Assembly: GCA_017610205.1 (NCBI GenBank)
Contig: JAFCCL010000002.1
Location: forward strand, 1-64,000
Direction: 5' to 3'
From: Candidatus Iainarchaeum sp.
Lineage (GTDB): Archaea; Iainarchaeota; Iainarchaeia; Iainarchaeales; GCA-2688035
DNA: 64,000 bases
The stretch's first letter is position 1. Each line of letters starts with the position of its first letter. Made by a program: the position numbers and the translations under genes. Shown here piece by piece: positions 1,992-62,089 of this stretch. Below the pieces are notes generated by a model, which made no database searches, was not told the origin of the DNA, and was given only the letters and a program-made list of their open reading frames with translations.

Positions 1992-2659
1992 ATGTAATTT
2001 TTGATGCATCTACCCTTATTTCAATAAGCCAAACCTGCCTTGTGAACCTTTTAGGTGGATTAAAGCAGAAAATGAATGCAGAGTTTATAGTTCCAAAGGC
2101 TGTGTTTTACGAGGCAGTGCAAAGGCCTATTTCAATCAAAAGGTTTGAGTTGAATGCAATTAGAATAAAAAAAGTAATTGAAGAAAACGGCTTCAAAATA
2201 GTTGCTTCCAAAGACCAAGGACTTTTTGACGAAATTGCAGGAATTGCAAATGCCTGTTTTTTTATAAAGGGAAAGCCAATAAAGCTTTTGCAAAGGGGAG
2301 AAATTGAAGCCCTTGCACTTGTGAAAGAATTGGGAGCAGGAGCTCTTGCAATTGACGAAAGGACTACAAGAATGCTTTTTGAGGCACCAGAGCATTTGAG
2401 AAAAATATTGCAGACAAGGAGAAGAATTGAAATTAAGGCAGACAGGTCAAATGTAAGAGCTTTGGAGTTAATGTTTCCGGGGATTACAATAGTTAGAAGT
2501 GTTGAGCTGATTGCTTTGGCTGAAGAAATGGGATTGCTTGAAAAGGAATTGCCAAAAGGAGAGCAAAGCCTTGAAGCAGCATTGTTTGCAGCAAAGTATT
2601 CCGGCTGTGCTGTTTCTGCAAGGGAAATTAATATGTTCTTGCATGGAAAAAAATGGTAA
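1988..2659 (+). CDS. PIN-domain-like protein
   Basis: N-terminal MNVIFDASTLISIS and ALAIDERTTRML, PIN-like acidic motifs; overlaps upstream gene by 4 nt. Confidence 0.6.
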   Translation: MNVIFDASTLISISQTCLVNLLGGLKQKMNAEFIVPKAVFYEAVQRPISIKRFELNAIRIKKVIEENGFKIVASKDQGLFDEIAGIANACFFIKGKPIKLLQRGEIEALALVKELGAGALAIDERTTRMLFEAPEHLRKILQTRRRIEIKADRSNVRALELMFPGITIVRSVELIALAEEMGLLEKELPKGEQSLEAALFAAKYSGCAVSAREINMFLHGKKW

Positions 2660-2749
2660 AAAATTACGTGAAAAAAAGTGGTGAAAAAAAAATGAATGTT
2701 GAAAAAATTGGCGAAGTAAATTAAAGAAATTAGTGAAGGGATTAAAAAA

Positions 2750-3220
2750 ATGGATGTTAAAGAAATTGACGAAAAAGATTACGGCGAAATAATTGGACTT
2801 ATTAAGTCAGAATTTCCTTACGTGGAATTTGACGAGGAAAAAATCAGGGAAAGAATTGAAAGCAGCAAAATTTTTCTCTTCAAGGCAATTGAAGGAAAAA
2901 AGATTTTGGGTTTTGTTGAACTGGAACTTTTGGAAGGAAGTGTTGCAAGAATAAATGGTTTAACTGTAAAACCAGAATTCAGAAACAATGGAGTTGCCAA
3001 AAAGCTTTTGGATTACTCAATTAAGTTTTTGAAAGAGAAAAAAATTGCAAGGGTTCTTTTGCTTGTAAAGGAAAAAAATGCAGCAGCAAAAAAGATATAC
3101 AAGGAATTCGGATTTGGGTTTATTGGAATGTACCACAGGGAACTTGACAGCGAAGTTGTTGAAGAAATGGAACTTGATTTGGCACCAGAGGACAAAAAGG
3201 ATTTAAGCTACGTTGGGTAA
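2750..3220 (+). CDS. GNAT N-acetyltransferase
   Basis: LTVKPEFRNNGVAKKLLDYSI and NAAAKKIYKEFGFGFIGMY motifs. Confidence 0.85.
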   Translation: MDVKEIDEKDYGEIIGLIKSEFPYVEFDEEKIRERIESSKIFLFKAIEGKKILGFVELELLEGSVARINGLTVKPEFRNNGVAKKLLDYSIKFLKEKKIARVLLLVKEKNAAAKKIYKEFGFGFIGMYHRELDSEVVEEMELDLAPEDKKDLSYVG

Positions 3221-3244
3221 GCTGGATTGACAGGCGTGGTTGAA

Positions 3245-4681
3245 TTAGTAGGCTTTTCCAAACCAGGCTTTTATTGATGTTTCCTTTCCGCATTTAATGC
3301 ATTTTAGCTTTTGGCTTTTTTGATTAAATGGAATGCATCTGCTTGTTGCAGTTGTTTCGTCCTTTATGGCTTCCTCGCATGCTGAAGTGTTGCAGAAGGG
3401 TGCAAGGATTAGCTTTCTTTCAGACAGTGCCTTTTTGAATTCCTGCCAGGTTTTGACTTCGGCGGAATTTTCTTTGAGAAATTTTTTGGCATTTTTAAAA
3501 AGGTCATTGTGCATTTCTTCAATTGCCTGCGTTGCCTTTTTTGCAAGATTTGATTCTTTTACAAATTCTTTTTTGCCGTTGTCTCTTCTTACCAAAACAA
3601 CCTGTTTTTTGTCAAGGTCTTTTGGACCGATTTCAATTCTTAAAGGAATTCCTTTGAGTTCCCATTCATTAAACTTCCATCCGGCAGAGTAAGATTCACG
3701 GTCGTCAACAAAAGCGTTTAATGAGGAAAGGTTTTTTTCGAGCTCTTTTGCTTTTTTCAAAACTTTTGCTTTTGTTTTGTCAAAAAGAATCGGAACAATT
3801 ACTGCTTTGGTTTTTGCAAGTTTTGGCGGAACCACCATTCCTTTATCATCACCATGTACCATTACAACTGCTCCAATAAGCCTTGTTGAAAAACCCCAGC
3901 TGTTTTGCCAGGGGGTTTTTTTGCTGCCTTTTTCGTCAAGGTATTCAATGCCAAAGCCTTTTGCAAAGCCTTGTCCCAAATTGTGGGTTGTTCCCATTTG
4001 CAGTGCTTTGCCGTCTGGCATTAGTGATTCCAAAGTAAATGTTTTCTTTGCTCCTGCAAACCGCTCTGATTCAGTTTTCTCTCCAAGAATAACAGGAATT
4101 GCAAGTTGTTCCTCGCAAAGAAGCCTGTATTCTTCCAAAATCTTTAAAGCTTCGCCTTCAGCTTCCTTTTCTGTTTCGTAAACACAGTGACCTTCCTGCC
4201 ACAAGAATTCCCTGGTTCTGAGAAAGAGTTTGCATTGCTTTACCTCCCAGCGTAGAACATTGCACCATTGGTTTAAGCGCAGGGGAAGGTCACGCCAGGA
4301 GCGAACCCACTTTGCATAACTTGCATACATTATTGTTTCGCTTGTTGGCCTTATTGCAACCTTTTCTTCAACATCTTTGCCGTCACTTTCAATCCAAGCA
4401 AGTTCTGGTTCAAAACCCTCAGCGTGTTCTGCTTCTTTTTCAAAAAAGCTTTTTGGAATAAGCAGTGGAAAATAAGCATTTTTCACACCCAATTTTGATA
4501 TTCTTGAATCAAAATAGGTTTTAATATTTTCCCAAATTGCGTAAGCGTTTGGTCTAACAATCATAAAACCACGAACAGGAGCATAGTCTGCAAGCTCTGC
4601 TTTTTGTACAACCTGATTGTACCATTCGGAAAAATTTCCTTTTTTTGTTTCTGTCAAACCCTGTTGCTTTTCTTCAACCAT
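3245..4681 (-). CDS. proS: prolyl-tRNA synthetase (archaeal/eukaryal type)
   Basis: RPTSETIMYASYAKWVRSWRDLPLRLNQWCNVLRWE, FLWQEGH; likely start MVEEKQQ at 4681. Confidence 0.92.
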   Translation of the reverse strand: MVEEKQQGLTETKKGNFSEWYNQVVQKAELADYAPVRGFMIVRPNAYAIWENIKTYFDSRISKLGVKNAYFPLLIPKSFFEKEAEHAEGFEPELAWIESDGKDVEEKVAIRPTSETIMYASYAKWVRSWRDLPLRLNQWCNVLRWEVKQCKLFLRTREFLWQEGHCVYETEKEAEGEALKILEEYRLLCEEQLAIPVILGEKTESERFAGAKKTFTLESLMPDGKALQMGTTHNLGQGFAKGFGIEYLDEKGSKKTPWQNSWGFSTRLIGAVVMVHGDDKGMVVPPKLAKTKAVIVPILFDKTKAKVLKKAKELEKNLSSLNAFVDDRESYSAGWKFNEWELKGIPLRIEIGPKDLDKKQVVLVRRDNGKKEFVKESNLAKKATQAIEEMHNDLFKNAKKFLKENSAEVKTWQEFKKALSERKLILAPFCNTSACEEAIKDETTATSRCIPFNQKSQKLKCIKCGKETSIKAWFGKAY

Positions 4682-57454: not shown

Positions 57455-57649
57455 TTACTCTTTTACAACAATTGCTTTTTGCGGGCAGCTTGCTTCACAC
57501 GCCCTGCATTGAATGCAGGAATCAGGATCTTTTACAATCGACTTTCCGCCCTCTATTTCAAAAACATCTACAGGGCAAACATCCTTGCATGTTCCGCAAC
57601 CAGTACATTTTTTTTTGTCAACATAAGGTTTTTCAGCCAAATTAACCAC
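57455..57649 (-). CDS. 2x[4Fe-4S] ferredoxin
   Basis: CTGCGTCKDVCPVDVF and CIQCRACEASCPQKAI. Confidence 0.93.
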   Translation of the reverse strand: MVNLAEKPYVDKKKCTGCGTCKDVCPVDVFEIEGGKSIVKDPDSCIQCRACEASCPQKAIVVKE

Positions 57650-57655
57650 CTCGTT

Positions 57656-57874
57656 TTAATCCTTTTTTTCAATTGCTTTGTTCATTTCAGCCAACAATTT
57701 TTCAAGGGTTTCTTCACTCATCCGATGCGCTTTAGCACCCTGTTCAAGGGTTTCATATGCAGCAATATGGCAACCAGCACAATGCAAATCAAATTTTAGC
57801 ATTAGTGGAACTGTTTCAGGAAATTTTGCAACTACATCGCCTAAGGTCATATCCTTTGAAATCTTTTCAGCCAT
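57656..57874 (-). CDS. DUF1858-type redox-disulfide domain protein
   Basis: MTLGDVVAKFPETVPLMLKFDLHCAGCHIAAYETLEQGA. Confidence 0.85.
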   Translation of the reverse strand: MAEKISKDMTLGDVVAKFPETVPLMLKFDLHCAGCHIAAYETLEQGAKAHRMSEETLEKLLAEMNKAIEKKD

Positions 57875-57900
57875 GTTATGAAAAGAATGCAAAAAGTCTT

Positions 57901-58602
57901 TTAAATCCTCCTTACACCAACTTTGTCAAAAAAAGGCTTTAAGGTTTTTGCAAAATTTTCCAGCTCTTCAACAGAAAAAGAACCGGTCCCCTGCAATTTG
58001 GAATCAAGCAAATCAATATTTGAATTGAACTGCTGTAAGAAAAAAAGCTTGCTTCCCTTAAGCCATTGCCCAATTTCCAAAACATCCTGTTCTTGATGGA
58101 TTTTTGGAACAAGCGTGGTTCTAAATTCATAATCAATTCCTGATTTTCTTATTAGAGAAATACTTTCCTCAATTTTTTTCAAATCAACTTTTACTCCTGC
58201 TGCCGTTTCATATTCTTTTTTTGAAGATTTTATATCCATTGAAATGTAATCCAAAAGATTTTTTTTCAAAAGAATTTTTAGCATTTCCGGAACCGTGCCA
58301 TTTGTATCAAGTTTTGACAAAAATCCAAGAGCTTTTGTTTTTTCAAGAAACAAAGGCAGGTCTTTGTGCAGGGTTGGTTCTCCACCAGTAATGCAAACAC
58401 CGTCCAAAAAACCCTTGCGTTCTTTGAAGAAGTCAAAAACTTCAGCTTCAGTTATTTCAACACCTGTGTCTTCGTCAAAAACAAGCTGTTTGTTGTAACA
58501 AAAAGGGCACCTGAAATTACACTTTGGCAAAAAAAGAGTGCAGGCAACTTTGCCTGGAAAATCTATCAAAGTTGTTTTTTGAATTCCTTTGAAAATAATC
58601 AA
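57901..58602 (-). CDS. nrdG: anaerobic RNR activating protein, radical SAM
   Basis: KTTLIDFPGKVACTLFLPKCNFRCPFCYNKQLV, CITGGEPTL. Confidence 0.92.
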   Translation of the reverse strand: MIIFKGIQKTTLIDFPGKVACTLFLPKCNFRCPFCYNKQLVFDEDTGVEITEAEVFDFFKERKGFLDGVCITGGEPTLHKDLPLFLEKTKALGFLSKLDTNGTVPEMLKILLKKNLLDYISMDIKSSKKEYETAAGVKVDLKKIEESISLIRKSGIDYEFRTTLVPKIHQEQDVLEIGQWLKGSKLFFLQQFNSNIDLLDSKLQGTGSFSVEELENFAKTLKPFFDKVGVRRI

Positions 58603-58623: not shown

Positions 58624-58770
58624 TTAATCACATTTTTCCAGGGCTTTTTTTGTATCATAGGTTTTTCTTTCAGCAAATTCTTCTTTCTTTCCGTCATTCC
58701 AATTGTTAACAGGGCGAAGATAACCAACAATTCTACTGTAAACTTCACACTGTGCATTACATTTTGACAT
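58624..58770 (-). CDS. stand-alone C-terminal glycyl-radical domain of class III RNR
   Basis: Read directly: MSKCNAQCEVYSRIVGYLRPVNNWNDGKKEEFAERKTYDTKKALEKCD*; SD AAGGAGGT upstream; overlaps nrdD end by 14 nt. Confidence 0.85.
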   Translation of the reverse strand: MSKCNAQCEVYSRIVGYLRPVNNWNDGKKEEFAERKTYDTKKALEKCD

Positions 58771-61700
58771 TTTTTTCAACCTCCTTTTTATCTGTTTTGT
58801 TTTCTTTCACTTCAACCGGGCAGGTAAAATGCTTGCCTTTTATATAGCCGTGTACAGGACAGATGCTGAATGTAGGACTTATTGTATAATAAGGCAGTTT
58901 AAATCCTTGTGCAATCTTTTTTACAAGCCTTGAACATGCTTCTCCTGATTCCATTGCCTCTCCTAAAAAGCCATGCAATACTGTTCCGCCAGTATATTTG
59001 CATTGCAATTCATCCTGATGCTTTAACACATCAAAAATGTCATCACTGTATCCAACAGGCAACTGCGTTGAATTGGTATAATATGGAACTTTTGTTCCTG
59101 CTGTTTTAATATCTGGATAATTCTTTCTGTCAATCTTTGCAAGCCTATAGCTTGATCCCTCTGCAGGCGTTGCTTCAAGATTAAAAATATGGTTTGTCTC
59201 AACTTGGAAGTCTGTTAACCTGTCCCGGAAAAAATCAAGCGTTTTTAAGGCAAACTTTTTTCCCTCGCTTGTTGCAAGCCCTGTTTCCATAAAGTTCAAA
59301 AGGAATTCGTCCATTCCAATAAGACCAATTGTGGAAAAATGATGATTGAGCTCGCCCAAATAGTGCTTGCTCCAGGGCAACAGCCCCTTTTCCATGTTCT
59401 TGTTAACCTCTTTTCTTTTTATCTCCAGGCTTTCTTTTGCAAGATAAAGCAAATTGTCAAGTTTTTCAAACAAATCTGATTCGTCTCTGCTCAAAAAACC
59501 AAGCTTTGGCATATTTATTGTAACAACACCAATGCTTCCGGTTTTTTCCCCAGAACCAAACAAACCGCCTGTCTTTAGCTTAAGCTCTTTAAGATTAAGC
59601 TGCAGCCTGCAGCACATTGATCTAACATCACTTGGCTTAAGGCTGCTGTTTATAAAATTTTGAAAATATGGAATGCCATATTTGGCAGTCATTTCAAAAA
59701 GGGCTTTTGCGTTTTCAGAATCCCAGTCAAATTCTTTTGTTATATTGTAGGTTGGAATTGGAAATGTAAAAACCCTTCCATTAGAATCCCCATTGGCCAT
59801 TACTTCTATAAAAGCCCTGTTAATCAAATCCATCTCAGGCTGGAAATCGGAATAAGTATCACTTTTAGATTCTTTGCCTCCAAGGACAATTGGAACATCC
59901 TGCATGTCTTCAGGAACAGTCCAGTCTATTGTAAGGTTTGTAAAAGGAACCTGGTTGCCCCACCTACTCGTTGCATTGATTGCAAAAATGAACTCCTGCA
60001 TGCTCTGCTTTACTCTTGCATAATCAAGCCTGTCATTCCTTACAAGCGGGGCAAGGTAAGTATCAAAGGAACTGAACGCCTGAGCTCCAGCCCACTCATT
60101 CTGCAAAGTCCCCATAAAATTTACTACTTGACCCAGTGCAGCATTAAAATGCTTTGCAGGCTTTGCACTAATTCGACCTGGAACACCGCCAAAACCCATT
60201 TCAAGCAATTGCCTTAACGACCAACCTGCGCAGTTGTGTGAAAGCATTCCATTGCATAGAAAAGTATGCGATTCTGTTGTTATGTCAAATACAAAAGGAG
60301 AATCGTTTTCAACTGTTTCAATTTTTCTTAGATGAGCAAATTTTTTAAAACAAGGCTCTTTTTGCGAGAACTTAAATTTGTTTTGAGTTACTTTAAGCGA
60401 TTGAGAAAACAGATATGCCTTTGTTTCAGGAATGAAAACAGAAAGAGAGTAAAGTTGTTTCTTAGACTTTATTATACGATTATTAAATTCTCTTTCGCCA
60501 AATGAATCAATTGTAGAAAGAGAAGAATTTATGCCACGAGATTGCAGCCAAAATTGCATTTGACCCAACAAGGTTTTTGAAGTTAATCTTACAACTGCCC
60601 TAGAAACCCATTTGTCATCAGTTCTAACAATACCGTCTCCATCTATTACTCCTGAAACCATTCCCCCAACACAATTGTCAGAATAGTTAATGAATTCTGC
60701 CGGAAGATTCTTATTTTCAGAATAAGCACGCATTTGACCAAACACAGTTCCAAGTTCAAAAGAAAGCTGGTTCAAATCAATTCTGACAACCAAAGTCCCT
60801 TGAAGAGATTGGTTCATTAAGACATTTCCAAAATCTACAACATTCCAATCACTGGTTTCCCTGTTTCTCAGAGCAGTAGAAAATCCGGTTGTTTTGCTTG
60901 CCAAATAGGCCAATAACTTGTGAGCTTCTACACTTTGAGAATTTAATTCAAATGCAAGATAATGATTGTCCTTAAAATAGCCTTCTGCAGCAAAAAATCC
61001 AATAAACCAACCATCTTCTTCATCCAAAGAAGAGCCATTGCCTTGTTTTAATGCAAACCCAGGAGTTACAGCATAATTACTCATAGTTAACTCTCCTGCA
61101 GCGGTTTCTTTTCTTTGGTCAGCAATCAATTCAATTGGTTTTTTAAAAGTGTTTTCACAACCCCTGCATTTATAGTAATCAAAACCGTTGCGATTGCTTC
61201 TATTTTTAAAAACATTTTTGCTTCCGCATGCATTGCATTTAAAAAACTCTTTCTCTTGATTCAAGGCAATAAAGGGATGGTCAGCGGTAACAATTAAATT
61301 GTAGCCGTTTGCCGAATTAATTGACAACAATGGTTTTTCCGTTTCATGCCTTAACACTCTTTTTAAATCAGTCCAGCCACCCTCATCCAAAACCTCAAAG
61401 TCATTAGTGTATTTAATTTCAAAACCGTTTTCTTCCACTATGTTTGAATCAACCAAATCAAACAACTGTTCCAAAGCCAAGCAAAAAAGCTTACTGGAAG
61501 CTTTTTCTCTCACAACAACTGTTTCATTTCTATAAAAAGAATAGCCTGAAAAAACACCGTTTCCCAAATCATGAATGTGAAAATCCGCATTTCTGTGCGC
61601 GTTTGAAATTTCTGCAGGGTAGATATTTCGCAAAGCATACTCGGCAATTACTGCAGCGCTTACATGAGCCTGCAATCCTGACAGAGAATAGGAGGCATTG

Positions 61701-62089
61701 CTGTTTTCAGAAACTCTCCAGTCACTTATTTGCACATAATCGTCAATAATCTTGTTTATTTTGCTCAAAAAGGCCTTACTGTCCCTCAAATTGCTTCTGT
61801 TTTGCCTGTAAAGAATGTAAGCTTTTGCGGTTTTTGCATGACCTGATTCAATTAGCTCTTTTTCAACAGCGTCGGAAACAGCTTCAATATCAACAGGTGC
61901 TGTTCCAAACTGTATTTTAAGCCTGTGAACTATTCTTTGAGTAAGTTCTTGTGCAACCTTTCTATCCTGTCCACCAACAGCCTTTGCAGCAGCAAAAATA
62001 GCGTCCTCTATCCTTTGTTCGTTAAAAGAAACAAGGCTTCCATCCCGTTTTTTCACATTTTCCAAAAATTTCTTTACCACTTGTATCAA
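58757..62089 (-). CDS. nrdD: anaerobic (class III) RNR large subunit with intein, lacking the glycyl-radical C-terminus
   Basis: N-terminal ATP-cone-like region, HIHDLG..SGY|intein|CAGWSLRQLLEMGFGG, C-terminal SICPVHGYIKGKHFTCPVE. Confidence 0.92.
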   Translation of the reverse strand: MIQVVKKFLENVKKRDGSLVSFNEQRIEDAIFAAAKAVGGQDRKVAQELTQRIVHRLKIQFGTAPVDIEAVSDAVEKELIESGHAKTAKAYILYRQNRSNLRDSKAFLSKINKIIDDYVQISDWRVSENSNASYSLSGLQAHVSAAVIAEYALRNIYPAEISNAHRNADFHIHDLGNGVFSGYSFYRNETVVVREKASSKLFCLALEQLFDLVDSNIVEENGFEIKYTNDFEVLDEGGWTDLKRVLRHETEKPLLSINSANGYNLIVTADHPFIALNQEKEFFKCNACGSKNVFKNRSNRNGFDYYKCRGCENTFKKPIELIADQRKETAAGELTMSNYAVTPGFALKQGNGSSLDEEDGWFIGFFAAEGYFKDNHYLAFELNSQSVEAHKLLAYLASKTTGFSTALRNRETSDWNVVDFGNVLMNQSLQGTLVVRIDLNQLSFELGTVFGQMRAYSENKNLPAEFINYSDNCVGGMVSGVIDGDGIVRTDDKWVSRAVVRLTSKTLLGQMQFWLQSRGINSSLSTIDSFGEREFNNRIIKSKKQLYSLSVFIPETKAYLFSQSLKVTQNKFKFSQKEPCFKKFAHLRKIETVENDSPFVFDITTESHTFLCNGMLSHNCAGWSLRQLLEMGFGGVPGRISAKPAKHFNAALGQVVNFMGTLQNEWAGAQAFSSFDTYLAPLVRNDRLDYARVKQSMQEFIFAINATSRWGNQVPFTNLTIDWTVPEDMQDVPIVLGGKESKSDTYSDFQPEMDLINRAFIEVMANGDSNGRVFTFPIPTYNITKEFDWDSENAKALFEMTAKYGIPYFQNFINSSLKPSDVRSMCCRLQLNLKELKLKTGGLFGSGEKTGSIGVVTINMPKLGFLSRDESDLFEKLDNLLYLAKESLEIKRKEVNKNMEKGLLPWSKHYLGELNHHFSTIGLIGMDEFLLNFMETGLATSEGKKFALKTLDFFRDRLTDFQVETNHIFNLEATPAEGSSYRLAKIDRKNYPDIKTAGTKVPYYTNSTQLPVGYSDDIFDVLKHQDELQCKYTGGTVLHGFLGEAMESGEACSRLVKKIAQGFKLPYYTISPTFSICPVHGYIKGKHFTCPVEVKENKTDKKEVEKNVKM
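60233..61540 (-). other. NrdD intein, 436 aa, with LAGLIDADG homing endonuclease
   Basis: Starts SFYRNETVVVRE, ends LCNGMLSHN|C; internal FIGFFAAEGYF and VSGVIDGDGIV; interrupts SGY/CAGWSLRQ. Confidence 0.85.

Follow-up and report, generated by a model that had tools for sequence, protein, structure and literature searches.

A separate gene for the glycyl-radical domain of NrdD in Iainarchaeota and its recurrence in other archaea, bacteria and viral contigs

The nrdD locus in the window

The window (the whole stretch of DNA analysed, 64,000 nucleotides from Candidatus Iainarchaeum sp.) carries a class III RNR gene, nrdD, whose stop codon comes soon after the opening portion of the C-terminal zinc motif. 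It is followed by a small ORF encoding a glycyl-radical domain (GRD) and then by nrdG. The features of the locus, all on the minus strand, are as follows.

58757..62089, minus: nrdD large subunit (1110 aa), with ATP-cone, catalytic barrel and three of four probable zinc ligands, without glycyl-radical domain, interrupted by an intein
60233..61540, minus: intein in NrdD, about aa 184-619, between ...VFSGY and CAGWSLRQ, boundaries placed by alignment
59609..59614, minus: conserved Cys-Cys of the active site, in RSMCCRL, the CC being invariant across 34 NrdDs
58820..58861, minus: large-subunit portion of the zinc site, the first part, with C1077, H1080 and C1090 (CPVH...TC)
58780..58784, minus: GGAGG, the Shine-Dalgarno site that serves the small ORF, lying within the 3' end of nrdD
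58770..58776, minus: A7 run at the junction, its last A being the A of the small-ORF ATG; not conserved in relatives
58624..58770, minus: separate glycyl-radical subunit (48 aa), with Cys4 the probable fourth zinc ligand and radical Gly16 (58725-58723); under purifying selection
57901..58602, minus: nrdG, radical-SAM activase, directly downstream in the order nrdD-GRD-nrdG; Radical_SAM E 1.6e-23

The large ORF, which ends in CPVHGYIKGKHFTCPVEVKENKTDKKEVEKNVKM and a stop codon, has Pfam matches to an ATP-cone (aa 11-99, E 9e-21) and to NRDD (PF13597; aa 615-1092, E 1e-160), the latter covering model positions 53-526 of 562. The second ORF, read from the ATG at 58770 (MSKCNAQCEVYSRIVGYLRPVNNWNDGKKEEFAERKTYDTKKALEKCD), matches NRDD alone in the Pfam scan, over the last 37 positions of the model (526-562, E 6e-12), beginning exactly at the position where the match of the large ORF ends. 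It contains the glycyl-radical motif RVxGY in the form RIVGY and does not match the PFL-type Gly_radical family (PF01228). The two ORFs overlap by 14 nt in relative frame +1, and the GRD of this NrdD, with its own start and Shine-Dalgarno site, is not covalently part of the catalytic polypeptide. An earlier note on this DNA had proposed such a 48-aa ORF with GGAGG upstream, and the coordinates and the division of the Pfam match at position 526 bear it out. The genome has a single GRD, the partner of its own nrdD rather than a spare copy.

The locus resembles known class III NrdD/NrdG systems (PF13597, TIGR02487) in its full-scoring NrdD with ATP-cone, in the identity of the small ORF with the end of the model, and in the adjacent nrdG. 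It differs in that the GRD is separate, so that the enzyme would have one more subunit than described NrdDs. The intein, missing from the earlier account of the large ORF, is about 436 residues long and was recognized by intein-splicing and LAGLIDADG matches, those from Pfam lying under the cut-off. In one relative (G005), the NrdD reading frame extends to 1677 aa and so probably contains more than one intein. Downstream of nrdG (57455-57892, minus), inspection by eye gave a small ORF similar to DUF1858 and another that is ferredoxin-like.

Recurrence of the split

The same break is repeated in relatives, where a PF13597 search (covering 93 relatives; the phylum set comprises 87 genomes) gives one match up to about position 526 and a second, separate match from about 525 to 562. 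Those relatives that have the gene and bear a name belong to Candidatus Diapherotrites. Short, separate ORFs account for 44 of the 52 GRD hits in the host order (Diapherotrites/Iainarchaeota), for 57 of 114 in Nanoarchaeota and for 29 of 42 in Micrarchaeota, counts that include additional copies and, in a few cases, ORFs lying at the end of a contig. The contexts examined in the latter two groups are mostly nrdD-GRD-nrdG, an order found also in the split loci of Chloroflexota and Muiribacteriota and in those of Paracoccus, Cupriavidus, Bradyrhizobium and Aquabacterium. Finished genomes of cultured bacteria have the split as well: Cupriavidus necator H16, C. metallidurans, Paracoccus ferrooxidans, P. 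denitrificans, Bradyrhizobium ottawaense and Aquabacterium olei. Cases of apparently dispersed GRDs in three genomes (G003, G071 and G073) were rejected, the genes lying at contig ends rather than at separate loci.

Across 49 split loci from archaea and bacteria, the small ORF lies in relative frame 0, 1 or 2 in 9, 22 and 18 cases, respectively, and an SD-like site precedes it in 41. Junction gaps at loci with the right start range from -43 to +339 nt; one locus (L296) had a wrong automatic start (the annotated start is 2420), and its gap of -86 was excluded, its frame and SD entries being kept in the totals. The start region of the small ORF follows the consensus M-x(1-3)-C-x3-[CT]-E-[VI]-YSR, usually with GGAGGTG in front. 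The small ORF is under purifying selection, with pN/pS of 0.17-0.32 between the window and seven family members and 0.18 pooled over all pairs. The comparison of orthologs thus came out in favor of a conserved split with its own SD, and the proposal in the earlier note, that a class III RNR has undergone fission and its radical subunit is detachable, is supported by an arrangement kept in dozens of genomes. One GRD-like ORF (L335, G280:C74, 2988-3257, minus) carries Trp (VVWYY) where the radical glycine should be; left out of the functional GRDs, it is either a decayed copy or a sequence error.

In a FastTree phylogeny of 131 NrdDs, made with the GRD columns left out, the label split or fused changes at least 11 times, or 7 times counting strongly supported branches only. 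For some of these changes the tree leaves the direction undecided, and some placements are uncertain on account of long branches. Re-fusion is suggested by a fused genus (g25) nested within a clade of split genes. Split genes from proteobacteria make up a clade of their own, as does a family (f9) in which the break comes after the zinc finger rather than within it. The number of state changes and these separate clades indicate that fission at the GRD border has happened repeatedly, fission and fusion both recurring on this tree.

The pHG1 megaplasmid record of C. necator H16 shows the same kind of split, with a 676-aa NrdD, a 66-aa GRD and NrdG; it differs in that the break comes after a complete zinc site and in an independent lineage, and the accessible papers on it do not mention a radical subunit of its own. 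The large ORF alone has a computed mass of 76.2 kDa, reportedly the mass given for NrdD in the 1999 paper on this organism. PMC2864759, citing Siedow 1999, reports nrdDG of this strain to be essential for complete denitrification, and it is this C. necator literature that speaks for function of a split NrdD in vivo. In a paper on C. metallidurans, NrdDG is given as Rmet_5137 and Rmet_5139, and the gene skipped, Rmet_5138, would be the GRD.

Split RNR genes are known from phages: NrdA-a/NrdA-b of Aeh1 and the NrdD fragments of phiAS4 (PMC3653736), and the split genes of Jug phages (PMC12363816). In these too an RNR polypeptide is divided between ORFs, at least one being reported functional without re-joining. 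They are, however, breaks in single lineages, mostly attributed to homing endonucleases, introns or inteins, whereas the break in NrdD is conserved at the border of the radical domain and has no mobile element there. Searches of an open-access library gave no description of a stand-alone NrdD radical domain, though an earlier mention may exist outside it.

The joint between the two pieces

Ordinary NrdDs carry C-x2-[CH] ... C-x2-C ahead of the radical loop. Split loci are of two types. In one, the second CxxC is kept in the large subunit, and the extra Cys is missing from the small one; in the other, the large subunit has only the first Cys of the second pair, and the missing Cys is supplied by the small subunit. 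An automatic test of the 49 loci put the fourth ligand in the large subunit in 16, in the small one in 30, and left 3 unresolved. After reading by eye, it lies in the small subunit at 31 loci and in the large at 18, with none having it in both and none in neither. The calls by eye concern L025 and also L150 and L189, two of the 18, where the His of CPxEH was counted as a ligand. This complementarity has a Fisher p of 9e-14, a value that overstates its strength, since split loci are not independent; the pattern nevertheless extends over several fissions.

By sequence, the four-ligand site in the window has three ligands in the large subunit and one in the small, and we infer that in this lineage the joint itself may be a zinc site common to the two proteins. 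The earlier note had assigned to the small ORF the other Cys pair of the motif. One probable zinc Cys, residue 4, stands; relatives have either C or T at residue 8, and to speak of a pair was too strong.

For a fused relative, AlphaFold gave a model (pLDDT 86) that agrees with solved NrdDs and has an ordinary NrdD fold. The split point falls there at residues ~652-664 of 709, in the loop of the zinc finger that connects two strands, a block with pLDDT of 70-82; the model is uninformative on docking in trans. Structural papers present the GRD as a unit at the C terminus that includes a structural zinc site (PMC11226230) and that flips out when NrdG activates it (PMC12662201), properties that would suit a detachable piece.

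Extra and viral copies and a possible repair role

Some genomes have a GRD beyond the one that belongs to NrdD. In two of these (G033, with an unsplit NrdD, and G044, with a split one), the extra GRD stands in a cluster with genes for a FUR-family regulator and a rubrerythrin, in the order FUR - rubrerythrin - GRD, its ATG overlapping or adjoining the stop of the rubrerythrin-like gene. It is followed by a peroxiredoxin gene in G033 and by that of a CDGSH protein in G044. The only peroxiredoxin match and the only rubrerythrin above the cut-off in G033 are those that flank the extra GRD, and rubrerythrin and peroxiredoxin genes are few in genomes with stress-operon GRDs. A genome of another phylum (G093) combines a split NrdD, which has its own GRD, with a cluster 14 kb off in the order FUR - GRD - rubrerythrin - rubrerythrin; G170, also with a split NrdD, has GRD - glutaredoxin - AhpC - ferritin on another contig. 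Of about 11 archaeal extra copies, 3 are in stress operons, while about 8 others, in Nanoarchaeota, have no clear stress neighbors. The binomial probability of 3 of 11 by chance is ~0.001, assuming 2% per copy, an estimate from gene counts rather than a measured background.

Of the Nanoarchaeota copies, one (L337, G296, 2538-4042, minus) lies between a 4Fe-4S ferredoxin-like gene and a cupin, and a similar ferredoxin-cupin pair is near the spare GRD of G170 (L331). In a patescibacterial locus (L176, 6167-6451, plus), an unsplit nrdD is followed by a tandem extra GRD, with its own Cys-rich N-terminal part, and then by nrdG.

Among 80 viral contigs retrieved with a GRD profile, more than 50 have a GRD in a short ORF and no nrdD or nrdG within ~4 kb. 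In 44 whole viral records (7-100 kb) searched with the NrdD family, no further part of NrdD was found; three of the 44 hold two GRDs. The records may be fragments, in which case an NrdD could be encoded outside the sequenced portion. Neighboring genes, judged by eye, include ones that resemble those for a primase, a RecD-like ATPase, a sliding clamp and a ThyX. The annotated GenBank phages searched with the small ORF gave no stand-alone GRD (matches in MT835493 and an Oceanotoga phage were rejected as continuous NrdD frames), and no PHROG or NCBIfam family dedicated to such a GRD was found.

YfiD/GrcA of E. coli and Y06I of phage T4 serve as spare parts for pyruvate formate-lyase (PMC8683613; Wagner 2001 as cited in PMC11194802). 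The likeness lies in a small stand-alone GRD, found in cells and in viruses, proposed to complete a glycyl-radical enzyme in trans. The window GRD differs in belonging to the NrdD family rather than to the PFL type, and in being the only one, whereas YfiD/GrcA is a spare beside an intact enzyme, a state found here in G033 and L176. The analogy with YfiD had been drawn in the earlier note, and the extra GRDs in oxidative-stress operons and the orphan GRDs on viral contigs without NrdD lend it indirect support. The simplest reading of such copies is that they serve NrdD as spare parts, in the way that YfiD/GrcA and Y06I serve pyruvate formate-lyase.

NrdD is regarded as a single polypeptide, which oxygen destroys irreversibly by cutting it at the radical glycine. 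The locus in the window very probably encodes instead a class III RNR of two subunits, with a radical domain that docks in trans and can probably be replaced after oxygen damage. Assembly in trans is well supported; the repair role is putative. The large subunit would provide the ATP-cone, the catalytic barrel and most of the zinc finger, and the 48-aa subunit the rest of the finger, the radical glycine and the C-terminal tail. Judging from the DNA, translation of the small gene would start at a Shine-Dalgarno site of its own and be coupled to the nrdD end. The product would dock non-covalently by way of the zinc finger, and in this lineage the zinc site would be complete only with both proteins in place. 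By homology, it is on the small subunit that NrdG would generate the glycyl radical, which would then pass to the active-site cysteine, as in an ordinary NrdD. Since oxygen cuts at the radical glycine, a separate radical subunit could, with less certainty, be renewed without remaking the large one.

One might suspect that the real gene is a single continuous nrdD, broken by a sequencing or assembly error, since the frames would be continuous with one base less in the A7 run and the sequence comes from a metagenome-assembled genome. This is barely credible, however, with the split found in dozens of separately assembled genomes, most of them having an SD and no A7 run. Somewhat less remote, but still highly unlikely, is programmed frameshifting or slippage at the A-rich junction, giving a fused NrdD alone or alongside the separate piece. 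A run of A7 or A8 does stand at the junction in the genus of the window, where overlaps are mostly +1, but the slippery run is missing from most relatives, many pairs are parted by stop codons, and the SD is positioned for initiation at the ATG. The earlier note had held error or frameshift in reserve; three relative frames, gaps of up to 339 nt and split genes in finished genomes of cultured bacteria exclude it as a general explanation. Split ORFs and an intein could also suggest an NrdD in decay, in an archaeon using another RNR. That hardly fits catalytic and radical motifs kept in both ORFs, purifying selection on the small one and an intact nrdG next to it, and it deserves very little belief.

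A neutral fission is another matter. The halves may simply assemble, their separation bringing no advantage and serving neither repair nor exchange, and this is a real if somewhat doubtful possibility. It would explain the window's own case without a repair role, operon order and translational coupling would hold the halves together, and the state changes on the tree go both ways, including an apparent re-fusion inside a split clade. The repair role, moreover, is guilt by association, from 3 of about 11 archaeal extra copies. Against neutrality, the break recurs at nearly one place, and it is just the GRD piece of which extra copies turn up in oxidative-stress operons and on viral contigs.

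Perhaps, beyond the two-subunit enzyme of the window, stand-alone GRDs of all kinds (split subunits of many archaea and some bacteria, stress-operon spares and orphan phage genes) make up a general spare-part system for class III RNR, being exchanged onto oxygen-damaged NrdD so that synthesis of DNA precursors recovers once oxygen exposure is over and phages can repair the enzyme of their host. The chances of this wider proposal seem evenly balanced. If the radical subunit is indeed detachable, oxygen damage to NrdD would be local and repairable, there would be a natural two-piece system in which to study radical-domain docking and activation by NrdG, and orphan phage genes with no family of their own would gain a clear prediction. 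Cultured hosts with the split, such as C. necator H16 and P. denitrificans, make the idea testable now. Users of databases should be warned that the GRD piece is annotated either as "hypothetical protein" or, in some RefSeq entries, as a short second "nrdD".
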